Assembly: GCF_004323735.1 (NCBI RefSeq)
Contig: NZ_CP036455.1
Location: 4,025,101-4,089,100 of the forward strand
Source: Streptomonospora litoralis
GTDB taxonomy: Bacteria; Actinomycetota; Actinomycetes; Streptosporangiales; Streptosporangiaceae
DNA: 64,000 bases
Reading direction: 5' to 3'
Shown piece after piece: positions 6,125-12,052 of the stretch; within the stretch, counting starts at the first letter, position 1; every line of letters begins with the position of its first letter. Under the pieces are notes generated by a model. The model worked only from the letters and a program-made list of their open reading frames with translations. It searched no databases and was not told the origin of the DNA. The translations under genes were made by a program, and so were the position numbers.

Positions 6125-6622
6125 TCAGCCGGCTGCGTGCAGCCAGCGCACCGGGGCGCCGTCGCCGGCGTAGCGGAAGGGTTCGAGCTCCTCGTCCCAG
6201 ACCCGCCCGGTGAGCCGGTCGAGCTCGGCCGCGAGGTCGGTCTCCTCCTGGGCCGCCGTGCGCTCCATGGCGTTGCGCAGCCGGGCCTCGGAGACCATCA
6301 CCTCGCCTGCGGCGCTGGTGACGGCGGTGAAGATACCCAGGCTGGGCGTGTAGCTGTACCGCACGCCGTCGCAGCCGGGAGTAGCCTCCTCGGTGACCTC
6401 GTAGCGCAGCTTCTGCCAACCGTTGAGTGCCGATGCGATGGCACCCGAGGTGCCGGGGGCACCCTGCCAGTTCAGCTCGGCGCGATGAGCACCGGGAGCC
6501 GCCGGCTGGGCGCTCCAATCGAGTTTCACAGGCACGCCAACCACACCCGCGACCGCCCACTCGACGTGTGGGCACAGCGCCGCAGGCGCGGAGTGGACGT
6601 ACAAGACGCCACGTGCGGACAC
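6125..6622 (-). CDS. DUF3145 family protein
   Basis: 165 residues. The GTG at 6622 is preceded by GGAGG on the minus strand and starts right at the conserved RGVLYVHSAPAALCPHVEWA. Other family landmarks are LDWSAQPAAPGAHRAEL, RYSYTPSLGIF and the C-terminal WDEELEPFRYAGDGAPVRWL. The family is nearly universal in actinomycetes but has no assigned function. It is transcribed divergently from the sigma factor gene that follows. Confidence 0.9.
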   Translation of the reverse strand: MSARGVLYVHSAPAALCPHVEWAVAGVVGVPVKLDWSAQPAAPGAHRAELNWQGAPGTSGAIASALNGWQKLRYEVTEEATPGCDGVRYSYTPSLGIFTAVTSAAGEVMVSEARLRNAMERTAAQEETDLAAELDRLTGRVWDEELEPFRYAGDGAPVRWLHAAG

Positions 6623-6764
6623 CGAACCTCCTGATACGAACGAGTGCGCTTCCCCGACGCCCTCGTACCCGCAGAGGAGCTGTCCGTTCTGGATTTTCCC
6701 GGCACCATTGTGCCCCATAGGCACCATCGGCACCAGGTCCGCCACGACCGGATCCGGTGTTTCC

Positions 6765-6793
6765 CCACATCCCATTCGGCCAGCGGCTACTGT
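6765..6793 (+). promoter_or_regulatory. Promoter-like element CCACAT-N17-TACTGT upstream of the sigma gene
   Basis: CCACAT at 6765-6770 and TACTGT at 6788-6793 are separated by 17 bases, 40 bases before the sigma gene's GTG. The second box fits the actinobacterial -10 pattern TANNNT. The same two hexamers at the same spacing occur upstream of the CHAT gene. The first box does not resemble TTGACA, so it may be a regulator site or an alternative -35. Confidence 0.5.
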
Positions 6794-6832: not shown

Positions 6833-7414
6833 GTGCGGGTGGCGGACCAGCCCTATGGGGAGGTCTCGACGGGCGAGCTGGTGAAGCGCGCTCTCGGCGA
6901 CGACGGCGCGGCATGGGAGGCGTTGATCGATCGGTTCGCCGTGCGGGTCCACGCAGTCGTACGCAGCCACGGCCTTTCGCCGCACGACGCACAGGACGCC
7001 GAGCAGACCGTGTGGTCCAATCTGGCCGAGCACCTCTCCCGCATCCGTACCCCGGAGAGCGTCGGCCCCTGGCTCGCGACCACTACCCAGCGAGAGTGCG
7101 GCAAACTCCGCCGCCTGGCCCGGCGCGCTCCGCCCACCGATCCCGAGCGGCTCGACGCCGCCGACCACCGCAGCCCGGAGGCGATCGCGATGGCGGCCGA
7201 GCGCGACCGCCTGGTGCGCCGCGCAATCGCATCCCTGCGCGAGCCCGACCGGACGGTGGCCGTACTGGAGTTGGAGGCGCCGCGCTCGCCGGCGGCCGAC
7301 ATCGCCGAGTTCGCGGGCGTGGAGCCCAGTGCGGTCCCGGCCGTGCGCCGCCGCGTCCGCCGCAGGCTGCAGCGGCTGCTGGTCGAGCAGGGGTACGGCA
7401 GGGGCGGTGGCTAG
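6833..7414 (+). CDS. ECF-like RNA polymerase sigma factor of the CHAT cluster
   Basis: 193 residues from the GTG at 6833; GTG at 6839 is also possible. Residues ~12-80 match sigma region 2 (WEALIDRFAVRVHAVVRSHG, DAEQTVWSNLAEHLSRI, then ESVGPWLATTTQRECGKLRR). Residues ~120-190 match region 4 (RAIASLREPDRTVAVLELE and a predicted HTH ending RRRVRRRLQRLL). The region-4 helix-turn-helix is divergent, which may alter promoter choice. It opens a gene cluster with a small beta-rich protein and a TPR-CHAT protein; actinobacterial sigma factors of this type are known neighbours of such proteins. Its own upstream motif is repeated before the CHAT gene, suggesting autoregulation. Confidence 0.8.
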   Translation: MRVADQPYGEVSTGELVKRALGDDGAAWEALIDRFAVRVHAVVRSHGLSPHDAQDAEQTVWSNLAEHLSRIRTPESVGPWLATTTQRECGKLRRLARRAPPTDPERLDAADHRSPEAIAMAAERDRLVRRAIASLREPDRTVAVLELEAPRSPAADIAEFAGVEPSAVPAVRRRVRRRLQRLLVEQGYGRGGG

Positions 7415-7599
7415 GCGCGCCCCGGAAGAGCTGCGGAGGCGGGGCGCGGCGCCCGGTCGCCCGGCGCGGCTGCGGCGCGGGCGGTGCGGTGCCCGGGCCG
7501 TCCACGGCCGACGCCGGCGAGTGGGGCCCCGGCCCGGTCGCCGCCGAGGGGGCGGGCCGGCGCGGCAAGGAACGGCACATCGGCAGGAAGGCACCCGGC

Positions 7600-8127
7600 A
7601 TGAGCCACGGCGACGACGCACCCGGCACGGGATCCGCGCCGTACGGGGCGGAGCGCGGCCCCGGCGAACCCGACCTCGACCGCCTCATCGCGGACCTGCA
7701 GGCCGACCGCGGTCCCTGCTCGGGCACCGTCAGCGATGAGGTTCGTGCGGCGGCCAGGGCCGCCTATGCGATGCGCCGCGACGACGCGGTCATGAGCGAG
7801 GTCGGCACCGACTCGGCGGAGTCGCCGCCCGCCGGCGTCCGCGATTCCGCCCTCCTGGCCGAGGCGCCCCGCTACCTGCGCTTCGACACTCCGGGCGCCA
7901 CGCTCGATCTGGAGATCACCGCGGTCGGCGACCGGCGCACCCTCGTCGGCCGCGTCGACCCGCCGGGGCCGACCTCGGCGGATATCCGCACCCCGCACGG
8001 GTCGGCTCGGGCCCCCGTCGACGCCGACGGCGCCTTCGTCGCCCCCGATGTCCCGACCGGACCGGTCAGCGTCCTCCTGCACCACCCCGCCGCCCCACCC
8101 GTGGCGACCCCCTGGGTCACCGCCTGA
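7600..8127 (+). CDS. Small predicted beta-rich protein between sigma factor and CHAT protein
   Basis: 175 residues; ATG after GGCAGGAAGG. A helical segment at ~45-75 (VRAAARAAYAMRRDDAVMSE) is followed by strands (YLRFDTPGATLDLEITAVG, RRTLVGRVDPPG, VDADGAFVAPDVPTGPVSVL) and a TPWVTA end. The strand pattern resembles a transthyretin or carboxypeptidase-regulatory-like beta-sandwich. I recognise this only as the usual middle gene of actinobacterial sigma/CHAT clusters; no function is established. Possible jobs, by inference, are anti-sigma factor, sensor, or CHAT substrate. No signal peptide or membrane segment. Confidence 0.7.
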   Translation: MSHGDDAPGTGSAPYGAERGPGEPDLDRLIADLQADRGPCSGTVSDEVRAAARAAYAMRRDDAVMSEVGTDSAESPPAGVRDSALLAEAPRYLRFDTPGATLDLEITAVGDRRTLVGRVDPPGPTSADIRTPHGSARAPVDADGAFVAPDVPTGPVSVLLHHPAAPPVATPWVTA

Positions 8128-8138
8128 TCCCCGACGCG

Positions 8139-8173
8139 TTGGCGCGCTCCCCCGCTGCAGCCGGGGGATTCCG
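8139..8173 (-). mobile_element. Probable IS200/IS605-type right-end (omega-RNA-like) hairpin scar
   Basis: Read on the minus strand this is GGAATCCCCCG, a CTGCAGC loop, CGGGGGAG and then GCGCCAA. It resembles the ending of actinobacterial IS605/TnpB elements (a GGGGAG...TCAA-type terminus). The minus-strand frame just upstream (8174-8340) reads KQEVQEAREAVVVPMRYG, like a TnpB C-terminal tail. No TnpB catalytic or zinc-finger sequence remains. It could instead simply be a terminator of the gene ending at 8127. Confidence 0.4.
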
Positions 8174-8742
8174 GCCCGTACCGCATCGGCACGACCACGG
8201 CTTCCCGGGCTTCCTGGACTTCCTGCTTCATCGACCTGTGCCGACCGTGAGGCCGCCCTTGCCCGGTCTCCACGGGCTTTCGAGCCTGACGGCTCCGTTC
8301 CCGACTTGTCCGGCGGTACCCGACGGGGATAAGACACCAGATGCTGTTCCGCCGGGCGGGCGAAACAGGGTGCCGTGCCCCGCTACCCGGGAAGGTCGGC
8401 CAAGCCGTGCCGGTCAACGACACGGGCCGACAAGGCCGCCCAGCGGACCCGAGCTGCACGGCCGGGCCGCCCATGGGTGCCCGACCGATCCAGCACTTCC
8501 TAGGACAGGGCTGAGACCTCCGCTCCGAACGGCGGAGCACCGCCGAAGCAACGGCAGCCGCCCCGCTCCCGGGAACAACCGACCGCTGCGGCGCGATGCC
8601 GACGGCGGCGATTCGGTCGGGCGATTGCGGCGGTGCGATTGCCGCGGTTCCGGGCCGGGCGCACGGGCGACGGAATGTCGGTTTGGTCGCGACCCGGTGG
8701 GCCCCGTAAGGGGATGAATCCGACAGGTCACTCCGCGACTCT
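8174..8742. other. Non-coding gap before the CHAT gene
   Basis: About 570 bases with no credible gene. Frames here are fragments or antisense extensions of the CHAT gene. The left part may be decayed transposon sequence; the right end holds the CHAT promoter motif. Confidence 0.6.
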
Positions 8743-8771
8743 CCACATGCGGGTAACCGCGTTAGTACTGT
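8743..8771 (+). promoter_or_regulatory. Promoter-like element CCACAT-N17-TACTGT upstream of the CHAT gene
   Basis: CCACAT at 8743-8748 and TACTGT at 8766-8771, separated by 17 bases, duplicate the element before the sigma gene. The spacers differ completely, so only the two boxes are conserved. The downstream leader to the ATG is about 90 bases. Confidence 0.5.
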
Positions 8772-8868
8772 CAGTGGCGCTGCGCACCGAAAACGGCGAG
8801 CGGTGCCCGTATATCCCTTCCCGCACGCCTTGCGCACTCCCTGCATCGACGGCGAAAGGCACCCCTCC

Positions 8869-11538
8869 ATGACCCCTGGGCGGCTCGACGGCGTTTCCCA
8901 CCCGGTCACTCTGGTCGCTCGGGACCCCGACCTGGCTCGGCAGTGCGCCGAGCAGGTGCTGTCCGGCGACTGCGACGCGGCTACCCGCTCCGCCGCCCTG
9001 CGCATGCTGGCCGCCGCCAGCCGCGAGTCCGGGCAGGACGCCGCCGCCGAACGGCTGCTGCGCCAGTCGGCCGCCGTCGCCGCGCGTGTCGGCGACGGCG
9101 AACGCGCCGCGCACGCGCGCGCATCCCGGCTGGGCCTGCTCGCGTTGCGCGGCAGCGGCGGGATGGCGGCCGAGTCGCTCGCCCGGCTGAGCGCGGCGGC
9201 CGCATCGGCGCGCGCCGTGCTGCTGACCCACCAAGGCGTGGCCGCGGCCCAGCGCGGCCGCTTCGGCGCGGCCGTGGCCGGATTCGACTCCGCCCTGGCC
9301 GCCCTCGACCGCGAGACCGACCGCCATCTGCTGCCGGGGGTGCTGAGCAACCGCGGTCTCGCCCTGATGTACGAGGGCCGATCGGAGGAGTCCGCCGCGG
9401 ACCTGGCCGACGCCCTGCGCCACGCCGACGAGCACGGCCAGTCGTGCCTGCGCGGCGTCACGCTGCAGAACCTCGGATGCCTGGCCGTGCGCCGCGGCGA
9501 CATCGCCCATGCGGTCTCCTGCTTCGCCGCCGCCGAGCACCTCGTGCCGCCGCAGCGCCGTCCCGGCGTGCGCCTGGACCACGCCGACGCGCTGCTCGCC
9601 GCCGGCATGCACCGCGAGGCCGAGCGCCTGCTCGGCGGGCTCGCTGTGCACGCCGGCAGCGGTCGCGATTCCGCGGAGGCCGCTACCGCCGGTCTTCTCC
9701 ACGCGAAGATGCGCCTTGCTCGCGGAGATGCCCAAGGGGCCCGGGATCTGGCCCGCCGGCTGCGGCGCGCGTTCGCGGCCGACTCGCTCTGGACGGAGCT
9801 GGCGCGCCTGGTCGAGTGGTCCGCCCGCCACAGCGCGTTCCCGCCGCCGCGCTCCACCGGATCCCGATCCGCACGATCCGGCTCGGTCGCGGGTGCCGGC
9901 CGCCGGGCGGCCGAATGCGCCGCAATCGCCGCGCCGATCGGCGCCGACGCGGCGGCTGCGGGGGCGCGGGCCCGGCCGGCGGTCAGTGCCTCCGAGGTCC
10001 CCCGTCCGCGGCAGGGCGGGGAACACGTGGGCGAGCCGACACCGCCCGCTCCGGCCGCCCCGGTCGACGCCGACTGGTCGGCCACGCCCGAGACGACCAC
10101 CGCCCTCGCCCACTGCGTCCACGCCGCGCCGCTGGGCCCGCTCTCCGCCGTCTTGCCCTCCGCCCACGAGGCGGCCGCCCTGCGCGCGCTCGCCGCGGGC
10201 GACCACGGCAGCGCCCGCGACCGGCTGCTCAGCCGACCGGAACACACCACCCCCGCCCGGCATCTGGAACTGATGGCCCACGCACGTGCCCGACGGCGCG
10301 AGATGGCGGCCGCCGGCGCGCGGCTCGCGCTGCGTGCGGGCGACGCGGCCGCGGCCCTGGAATGGGCGGAGTTCGCATCCCTTTCGACCGTGCCCTCGGG
10401 CCCCTGCCACGACCGGGAGTGGTCGGCGCTGCTGGACCGGTGCCGAAGGGCGCACGTCCGCGCACACGGCGGCGATCCCGCGGCCCGGCAGGAACTGTCG
10501 GCCATCGCAGATCGGCTGAGTGCCGCCCAGTGGCACCCGGAATGCATGGCCGCCGAAGACGTCGGCGGCCCGGAACACCCCGTGGCGGCCACGCTCGCCG
10601 AGCGCCTGGGCGAGCGGGCGCTGGTCCGGTACCTGCGCGTCCACGGCAGGGACGCCGCGATCACCCTCGCCGGCGGCCGGATGCGCGTCCACCCGCTGCC
10701 GCCGCCGGGCGACACCGAGGACGCCGTCGCGAAGCTGGCCTATGCCGCCCGCGCGCGGGTGTTCGCCGAAGAGGGCGGCCGGTTCCGCCGGGACGGCGTC
10801 GCCGCGGCGGCCGCCGCGGTCGAACGGCTGCTCGTCGGCCCCGTACGGGAAGCGGTCGGGGACCGCTCGTTGGTGGTGGTTCCGCCCCCGTCGGCGCAGG
10901 CGCTGCCCTGGGGGCTGCTGCCGAGCATGCGGGGCCGTGAGATCAGTGTCGTCCCGTCGGGGCGTTCCTGGTTGGCGTGCCGCGAGCGAGGAGAGGGTCG
11001 CGCCGAGCGCGGTGCCGGTGCGCGGGTCCTGCTGGCCGCGGGGGCGGCACCCGCCGGAGCCGCGGCCGAGGTGGACGCGCTGCGGGCCGCGCTCCCGCGG
11101 GCACGGGTGCTGTGCGGGCCGAGGGTGTGCGTGGATGATGTCCTGGGCGGCCTGGAGGAGGCCGACATCGCCCACCTGGCCGCCCACGGCTCGGCGTCCT
11201 GGCAGGCGCCGATGCTGGCGGGTGTACTGCTGGAGGACGGACCGCTGTTCGCCTACGACGTCGAGCGGCTCGCCCGCGCGCCGCGGGTGACGGTGCTCTC
11301 GTCGTGCTGGGTCGGAGGTTCGGTTCCCGCGGCTTCGGGTGCCCCGCTGGGAATGGCGGCCTCGCTCCTCGCCGTGGGCGGCGGGGCGGTGGTGGCCGGG
11401 GTGCTGCCGGTAAGCGACCGCGGTATCACGCCCGCCATGCTCGCCTTCCACACGGCGCTGCACGCGGGCGCGACGCCCGCCGGCGCCGTTGCCGAGCACC
11501 TCGCCGACGCCGGTTTCATTTGCTACGGCGCCGGATGA
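8869..11538 (+). CDS. TPR-repeat CHAT-domain protein (caspase-like protease fold)
   Basis: 889 residues from the ATG at 8869; a GTG at 8803 would add 22 residues with untypical codons. The N-terminal ~300 residues are alpha-helical TPR-like repeats (for example FGAAVAGFDSALAALDRETD and RSEESAADLADALRHADEHG). A low-complexity Pro/Ala/Arg linker occupies ~325-400, then further helical repeats. The C-terminal ~250 residues are a CHAT domain. It has HLAAHGS, with the catalytic-type His at 773, and LSSCWVG, with Cys 813, in the caspase-like His-Cys arrangement. CHAT proteins are separase/caspase relatives, often in conflict or programmed-death systems. There is no signal peptide, so it is probably cytosolic. 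Confidence 0.85.
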   Translation: MTPGRLDGVSHPVTLVARDPDLARQCAEQVLSGDCDAATRSAALRMLAAASRESGQDAAAERLLRQSAAVAARVGDGERAAHARASRLGLLALRGSGGMAAESLARLSAAAASARAVLLTHQGVAAAQRGRFGAAVAGFDSALAALDRETDRHLLPGVLSNRGLALMYEGRSEESAADLADALRHADEHGQSCLRGVTLQNLGCLAVRRGDIAHAVSCFAAAEHLVPPQRRPGVRLDHADALLAAGMHREAERLLGGLAVHAGSGRDSAEAATAGLLHAKMRLARGDAQGARDLARRLRRAFAADSLWTELARLVEWSARHSAFPPPRSTGSRSARSGSVAGAGRRAAECAAIAAPIGADAAAAGARARPAVSASEVPRPRQGGEHVGEPTPPAPAAPVDADWSATPETTTALAHCVHAAPLGPLSAVLPSAHEAAALRALAAGDHGSARDRLLSRPEHTTPARHLELMAHARARRREMAAAGARLALRAGDAAAALEWAEFASLSTVPSGPCHDREWSALLDRCRRAHVRAHGGDPAARQELSAIADRLSAAQWHPECMAAEDVGGPEHPVAATLAERLGERALVRYLRVHGRDAAITLAGGRMRVHPLPPPGDTEDAVAKLAYAARARVFAEEGGRFRRDGVAAAAAAVERLLVGPVREAVGDRSLVVVPPPSAQALPWGLLPSMRGREISVVPSGRSWLACRERGEGRAERGAGARVLLAAGAAPAGAAAEVDALRAALPRARVLCGPRVCVDDVLGGLEEADIAHLAAHGSASWQAPMLAGVLLEDGPLFAYDVERLARAPRVTVLSSCWVGGSVPAASGAPLGMAASLLAVGGGAVVAGVLPVSDRGITPAMLAFHTALHAGATPAGAVAEHLADAGFICYGAG

Positions 11539-11623: not shown

Positions 11624-12052
11624 ATGGACGACGCCGCACATCCCCCCGCCGACCCGTTCACCGAAGGCTGGAGCGAGCCGCGCCTTTTCACGCTCGCCGA
11701 GGCGCGCTCGCTCATGCCGGAGGTCCACCGCCACGCCGACGAACTGGTGAACCTGCGCGCCGATCTCGCCGAGCTGGCCGCCGACCTGCGCGGCGGCGAT
11801 TCCGCCCTGGGCGGCCGCGCCGAACTGAAGGCGGCCGAAGCGCGCTTGACCGAGCTGCAGACGTGGTTCGCCGACAACGGCATCGAGGTCAAGGGCGTGG
11901 CACCGCTGCTGATCGATTTCCCCGCCCTGCTCGACGGCGTGTCGGTGCGGCTGTGCTGGCTGGAGGGAGAGACCGAACTCGCCTGGTACCACCGCACCGA
12001 TCTCGGATTCGTCGCCCGGCGGCCGCTGCCGGAGCACACCTCTCCCTTCTGA
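11624..12052 (+). CDS. DUF2203 family protein
   Basis: 142 residues. It begins FTLAEARSLMPEVHRHADEL and continues as a helical hairpin (ELKAAEARLTELQTWFADNG), then GIEVKGVAPLLIDFPALLDG and WYHRTDLGFVARRPLP, the pattern of DUF2203. The family is a small soluble helical protein without known function. A standalone gene 86 bases downstream of the CHAT gene; no evidence that it belongs to the CHAT cluster. Confidence 0.85.
   Translation: MDDAAHPPADPFTEGWSEPRLFTLAEARSLMPEVHRHADELVNLRADLAELAADLRGGDSALGGRAELKAAEARLTELQTWFADNGIEVKGVAPLLIDFPALLDGVSVRLCWLEGETELAWYHRTDLGFVARRPLPEHTSPF

Follow-up and report, generated by a model that had tools for sequence, protein, structure and literature searches.

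What joins a sigma factor, a small beta-rich protein and a protease-like protein whose genes follow one another in an actinobacterial chromosome? The question is raised by a locus of Streptomonospora litoralis found in a 64,000-nucleotide stretch of the genome (contig NZ_CP036455.1, positions 4,025,101 to 4,089,100), referred to here as the window and numbered from its first base. The locus comprises an ECF (extracytoplasmic function)-like sigma factor gene (6833..7414, plus strand, GTG start, 193 residues), a gene for a small protein proposed below to be the partner of the sigma factor (7600..8127, plus strand, ATG start, 175 residues), and a gene for a protease-like protein in which TPR (tetratricopeptide repeat) units precede a CHAT domain (8869..11538, plus strand, ATG start, 889 residues). 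The coordinates, strand and lengths given for these genes in an original prediction made from the DNA alone were correct, and that prediction had also proposed that the three genes act as one module. Our analysis confirms this module and shows it to be conserved and almost universal within the order.

Of 60 genomes searched, 45, among them that of the window, encode relatives of the CHAT protein (1e-10), and 53 stretches were fetched around CHAT matches in addition to that of the window. The small protein is encoded in 47 of these 53 and the sigma factor in 44; in every one of the 44 loci holding both, the sigma gene lies directly 5' of the small gene on the same strand. The CHAT gene follows these two in the same orientation in 33 loci, precedes them in the same orientation in two and is oppositely oriented in nine. 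Nine of the 53 loci are incomplete (three with the small gene and no sigma gene, six with CHAT alone), and some of the stretches are short. A second starting point, a contig scan with an alignment of six small proteins, yielded 18 loci from Streptosporangiales, Acidothermales, Sporichthyaceae, Pseudonocardia and Acidimicrobiia, among others; four of these (L085-L088) belong to genomes that the CHAT-first set had already sampled, and the window's locus (L084) is counted apart. A sigma gene adjoins the small gene in all 18 (17 times on the 5' side, once on the 3' side) and a CHAT gene is present in 17, the exception being an 8.5-kb contig. The sigma gene is again directly 5' in 30 of 30 loci taken from a survey of the class; seven of these, including that of the window, had been counted before. 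When every fetched locus is considered, with duplicates, a sigma gene lies at most 900 bp 5' on the same strand for 222 of 232 small genes.

The association also holds at the level of whole genomes. In the class survey, a small-protein profile (1e-5) matched in 86 of 246 genomes, and a strong CHAT relative is present in 85 of these 86 versus 3 of the 160 others (Fisher p 2e-61, ignoring relatedness), where the cut for a strong relative was set at about 1e-30 and 19 genomes with weaker CHAT matches were counted as lacking one. In the order survey, the small protein (1e-10) was found in 324 of 345 genomes. All three genes are under constraint, the small protein least: against three congeners, ratios of nonsynonymous to synonymous substitution rates are lowest for sigma (0.16-0.27), intermediate for CHAT (0.29-0.36) and highest for the small protein (0.47-0.56), and against two more distant congeners they are 0.39-0.50, 0.48-0.52 and 0.54-0.57, respectively.

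Most relatives of the module possess a fourth gene. A subtilase, forming a single blastp cluster, is encoded in 44 of 68 distinct fetched stretches; all three members scanned match PF00082, and D142, H182 and S352 are among the invariant columns of 15 aligned subtilases. In the class survey, a subtilase (1e-40) was detected in 75 of 246 genomes, namely 72 of the 86 that bear the small protein and three others, and 13 of the 14 small-bearing genomes with no subtilase match belong to the same family as the window's genome, which is one of the 13. Scoring the best first-look candidates in that genome, a 15-row subtilase profile found none at 1e-40 and a single member, run with no positive control, found none at 0.01. 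The window most likely carries a reduced three-gene form that lacks the subtilase.

The genes do not have to be linked to be retained together. The class survey contains 93 small genes, two N-terminal fragments of already listed genes being left out, and a CHAT gene lies within 10 kb on the same contig for 65 of them; 17 of the remaining 28 come from 17 genomes of one family (f21), most of them on separate draft contigs. The small gene is at least 1.8 Mb from the CHAT gene in four genomes assembled as a single contig (G173, G164, G213 and G099), and in these four the subtilase is within a few kb of CHAT. The distance between small and CHAT genes, with the subtilase staying beside CHAT, suggests that the natural halves of the system are a sigma-small pair and a subtilase-CHAT pair, both of which are kept. 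The claim of a single module therefore holds up, as the three genes co-occur whether the search starts from CHAT or from the small protein, and still do so where linkage has been lost. The original prediction had missed both the usual subtilase and the small protein as a probable sigma partner.

Several departures from the common pattern were observed. One CHAT protein (L042, genome G013) is 47% identical to that of the window and has neither a sigma nor a small gene in its 14-kb stretch, a small gene being present elsewhere in the genome. Six genomes of one genus (g55; G077, G111, G139, G228, G236 and G261) encode much diverged small proteins (1e-12 to 1e-22) together with weaker CHAT matches, a pattern suggesting that the module is evolving fast or decaying in this genus. 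Many genomes of the order hold two to five small-protein matches, and one contig region (G603:C77:29424-39374) has three on one strand within 10 kb. The phylum survey gave a small-profile match in 50 of 396 genomes; in 15 of the 50, all from family f56, only a weak, partial match was obtained (best 2.8e-11).

With the module established, the central issue becomes the role of the small protein. Its structural model (mean predicted local distance difference test, pLDDT, 79.7) contains helices at residues 26-36 and 46-67 and an eight-stranded sandwich at 91-169, joined by a disordered linker of low model confidence at about 68-90, so that the predicted beta-rich character of this protein is confirmed in the model and extended by two helices and the linker. 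The window's small protein has no match in Pfam, NCBIfam or PADLOC at E values up to 0.1, and a fold search with its model returned nothing at 0.001 or better (best 0.014), the weak matches being mostly immunoglobulin (Ig)-like or other beta sandwiches. Among 45 members of the family scanned against Pfam, 44 of them trimmed to the domain, 18 match CarboxypepD_reg (PF13620) at E values up to 0.1 (best 4e-5); the window's own copy does not. CarboxypepD_reg is a regulatory-like beta domain that is not known to carry catalytic residues. ECF54 sigma factors have been described as adjoining CHAT, subtilase and "carboxypeptidase" proteins (PMC8999054), and the PF13620 matches probably explain the last of these. 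By this domain evidence, the "carboxypeptidase" of ECF54 loci is probably the non-enzymatic small protein itself.

Conservation in the small protein, assessed over 188 paired loci, is highest at W172, G144, G117, F146, R81 and T170. The fifth of these lies in the linker (codon 7840..7842, plus strand), where 184 of 187 aligned sequences have an Arg, while the remaining linker columns (68-90) reach at most 71%. A nearly invariant residue in a flexible and otherwise variable linker resembles a cleavage or contact site, and Arg81 is a candidate for either.

The sigma factor matches Sigma70_r2 (1e-6) and TIGR02937 sigma70-ECF (5e-12), bearing out its assignment as ECF-like, and the Pfam scan gave no region-4 match. 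The window's own genome has 28 sigma region-2 matches versus only two CHAT matches. Coevolution leans, short of proof, toward a pairing of this sigma factor with the small protein. In a set of 188 sigma-small pairs (effective number 148), the mean of the top 20 couplings is 0.610 versus 0.504 (sd 0.014) for within-cluster shuffles, and none of 60 shuffles reaches it. With 55 loci and shuffling within clades, none of 60 shuffles reaches the sigma-small top-20 or top-100 mean (z 4.3 and 5.0); for the same loci, sigma-CHAT has z values of 1.5 and 2.4 and small-CHAT of 1.0 and 1.9.

The third component has the conserved His-Cys dyad of a clan CD protease. PF12770 (CHAT) is matched at residues 647-876 (4e-18), and matches to TPR stay below the curated cut-off; a model of the whole protein (mean pLDDT 75.4) shows a helical-repeat array followed by a CHAT-like domain. 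E734, H769, H773, C813 and D850 are each invariant in 73 of 73 aligned CHAT domains, a set that includes the window's copy and four duplicate stretches, and the His773/Cys813 pair that had been read as intact is found where it was placed. In the model, H773 and C813 directly follow the CHAT strands 767-771 and 807-810, which is consistent with their adjacency in the fold, residues 815-825 having a pLDDT below 50. Fold searches matched separase (2.8e-11), DdvA (1.8e-10, ranks 5 and 11) and Csx29 (5.6e-9). A ciliary protein ranks first, the fold matches have TM-scores of 0.2-0.5 and large root-mean-square deviations, and separase is the best protease match but with TM-scores of 0.3-0.5; the helical repeats will contribute much of the fold-search score. 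When a CHAT profile was compared with PDB sequences, the best match was DdvA (8rot, 8rw5; 1e-11), followed by the TPR-CHAT chains of Craspase (2e-8 to 4e-4, with the His and Cys aligned) and a weak match to separase (0.008). We consider it likely that the CHAT protein is an active protease.

A separase-like specificity for Arg was also considered for this domain, as D850 (C+37) resembled the Asp that binds the P1 Arg, and was rejected. The separase residue is D2070, located at C2029+41 (PMC10317155, PMC12609080); in a gapless comparison by eye, D850 falls opposite D2066, and column 854, where D2070 would be expected, is variable. The window's genome has a second CHAT gene (L270, G000:C1:1418999-1419946), which matches PF12770 at 6e-44 versus 4e-19 for the CHAT gene of the window.

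A precedent for a system of this composition exists in type III-E CRISPR, in which the TPR-CHAT protein Csx29 cleaves Csx30, a protein that binds and inhibits the ECF sigma factor CASP-sigma (PMC10028731). As the same three kinds of part are present here, the simplest reading by analogy would make the small protein both inhibitor and substrate. The original prediction had suggested that the TPRs would sense a signal, that CHAT may cut the small protein and that the sigma factor would then alter transcription, and for this chain of events the CRISPR system is a close parallel. We tentatively favor a cytoplasmic, protease-controlled sigma switch of this kind, at somewhat short of even confidence. 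The small protein would bind the sigma factor encoded directly 5' and hold it inactive; a signal received by the TPR array would activate TPR-CHAT, which would cut the small protein in its exposed linker, with Arg81 as the leading candidate site; and the freed sigma factor would then transcribe its genes. In most relatives the subtilase and CHAT would act as a protease pair, and the window's clade would work without the subtilase. The parts of this scheme are not equally secure: binding of the sigma factor by the small protein is reasonably likely, cleavage of the small protein by CHAT is a possibility that we would place a little below an even chance, and we infer the cleavage site, signal, cell location and regulon.

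A number of results weigh against this switch. None of the 45 small proteins scanned has a Pfam anti-sigma domain, and a small-protein profile searched against PDB chains gave nothing better than an E value of 0.36, to an unrelated ciliary protein, so that by sequence the family has no relative in Csx30 or in a known anti-sigma factor. The strongest single sigma-small coupling is unexceptional (9 of 60 shuffles reach it), and coupled pairs are not concentrated in the helical part of the small protein (16 and 38 of 60 shuffles reach the observed counts). When only the 32 loci with CHAT directly downstream are considered, the gap between pairings narrows, with z values of 3.5 and 5.1 for sigma-small, 2.4 and 3.1 for sigma-CHAT and 2.5 and 2.4 for small-CHAT. 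Partial distance correlations favor the two pairings that involve CHAT, being 0.15 for sigma-small given CHAT, 0.54 for sigma-CHAT given the small protein and 0.49 for small-CHAT given sigma. As no Asp matches separase D2070, specificity of CHAT for Arg is unsupported, and the closest PDB sequence relative of the CHAT domain is a protein titled as an anti-sigma factor.

The sigma-CHAT correlation given the small protein speaks for a different arrangement, in which the proteases degrade the sigma factor itself and the small protein presents or protects it, acting as an adaptor, sensor or chaperone. This follows the published proposal for ECF54 loci, where the passages on these loci describe proteolytic control of the sigma factor without an anti-sigma factor (PMC8999054). 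Such an arrangement leaves unexplained why a small gene is nearly constant directly after the sigma gene, and why the sigma-small pair is kept together when CHAT and the subtilase lie elsewhere; we regard it as unlikely.

DdvA, a CHAT protein that is itself an anti-sigma factor (PMC4374960), raises another alternative, that TPR-CHAT is a DdvA-like regulator which itself binds and inhibits the sigma factor, the small protein being a co-inhibitor or ligand sensor and catalysis secondary. DdvA is the best sequence match to the CHAT domain, carries the PDB title of a transmembrane anti-sigma factor (8rot, 8rw5), and appears twice among the upper ranks of the fold search. The TPR-CHAT protein of the window, however, contains no Pfam anti-sigma domain and its model starts with helical repeats, the invariance of the dyad in all aligned CHAT domains suggests that catalysis matters, and CHAT is sometimes encoded megabases away from the sigma-small pair, making direct inhibition quite unlikely. 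The original prediction hinted at a conflict or cell-death system. In a reading of that kind, CHAT would be a suicide protease and the sigma factor would only raise CHAT expression upon infection or stress; caspase-domain proteins of proposed conflict systems do occur near ECF sigma and TPR-protein genes (PMC8195603). This reading is unsupported and improbable here, given that almost all genomes of the order have the small protein, that the same flanking DUF3145-like and DUF2203-like open reading frames recur and the place is thus often constant, and that a PADLOC search gave no match better than 0.048.

A comparison with known systems places the protease-controlled switch in a wider setting. 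Like ECF54 loci, the module contains an ECF sigma gene, a CHAT gene (in the window and in nearly all small-first loci) and a neighbor with a carboxypeptidase-type domain (in the 18 family members noted above), and most of its relatives also have the subtilase neighbor. Unlike those loci, no subtilase was found among the candidates scored in the window's genome, and where the published proposal has no anti-sigma factor, the carboxypeptidase-type neighbor here looks like a non-enzymatic sigma partner. By the genes that accompany its sigma factor, the module of the window belongs with ECF54-type loci as a subtilase-less variant. With the Craspase arm of Csx29, Csx30 and CASP-sigma, it shares a set made up of a TPR-CHAT protein, a regulator and an ECF sigma factor, and a protease of the same CHAT superfamily with its His and Cys aligned. 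It differs in that the three scanned neighbors in the window are not cas-like and include no Cas7-11, no genome-wide search having been made, and in that homology to Csx30 was not found by sequence among PDB chains that hold 8eey, an entry titled with Csx30. The regulator here is also a 175-residue protein with an Ig-like sandwich versus 565 residues for Csx30, and the module is nearly universal in the order rather than a defense locus. DdvS-DdvA of Myxococcus xanthus is similar in that an ECF sigma factor is regulated via a CHAT-containing protein, the closest in PDB sequence to our CHAT domain. By its PDB title, however, DdvA is a transmembrane anti-sigma factor, whereas CHAT in the module is a separate protein with no recognized anti-sigma domain, and it is the small protein, encoded by another gene, that is proposed as the inhibitor. 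Separase has in common a helical-repeat array and a clan CD protease domain with a His-Cys dyad, and differs in having its P1-Arg-binding Asp at a position not matched in CHAT and in its biology.

These parallels allow a broader and rather doubtful proposal, that actinobacterial chromosomes encode a CRISPR-independent, Craspase-like relay in which TPR-CHAT, often together with a subtilase, cuts a new family of linker-bearing sigma inhibitors, with the type III-E arm representing one recruitment of it. If this were true, the CRISPR arm would derive from a widespread protease-inhibitor-sigma circuit and would have a common chromosomal counterpart to its CHAT-to-sigma signaling, the unexplained ECF54 loci would gain a concrete regulator and substrate, and a new anti-sigma family would be added. 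A search of titles and abstract openings in one open library found no description of the small protein as an anti-sigma factor. What appears to be new is that the small protein is a nearly constant partner of the sigma factor, that the module is split in some genomes and that it parallels the CRISPR protease arm; part of this may already be present in the original ECF54 descriptions.

The surroundings of the module are also partly conserved. On its left lies a divergent DUF3145 gene (6125-6775, minus strand) and on its right a DUF2203 gene (11624-12052, plus strand) and a DUF5709 gene. DUF3145-like open reading frames occur in 27 and DUF2203-like ones in 12 of the 68 distinct fetched stretches, and their recurrence around the module indicates that its chromosomal place is often the same. 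Within the module, a gap of 741 bp separates the small and CHAT genes (8128..8868, plus strand), which qualifies a reading of the window's genes as a single transcript; in six relatives (L040, L046, L048, L049, L057 and L068), the stop-to-stop frames of the two genes abut within 4 bp.

Two sequence features upstream of the genes were noted. The exact pattern CCACAT-N17-TACTGT is found in the window upstream of both sigma (6765-6793) and CHAT (8743-8771); allowing up to two mismatches, it has four matches versus a shuffle mean of 0.80, and 2 of 100 shuffles reach four. It was rejected as a promoter shared by the two genes, as the CCACAT half is not conserved upstream of sigma in five congeners and is likewise not conserved at the CHAT site in the two congeners for which that site was covered. 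In an alignment of four congeners, whose stretches overlap only in part, 17 of 17 invariant columns fall within positions 8753-8775 of the window, some 100 bp before the CHAT start, and this block could be a promoter or a regulator site.

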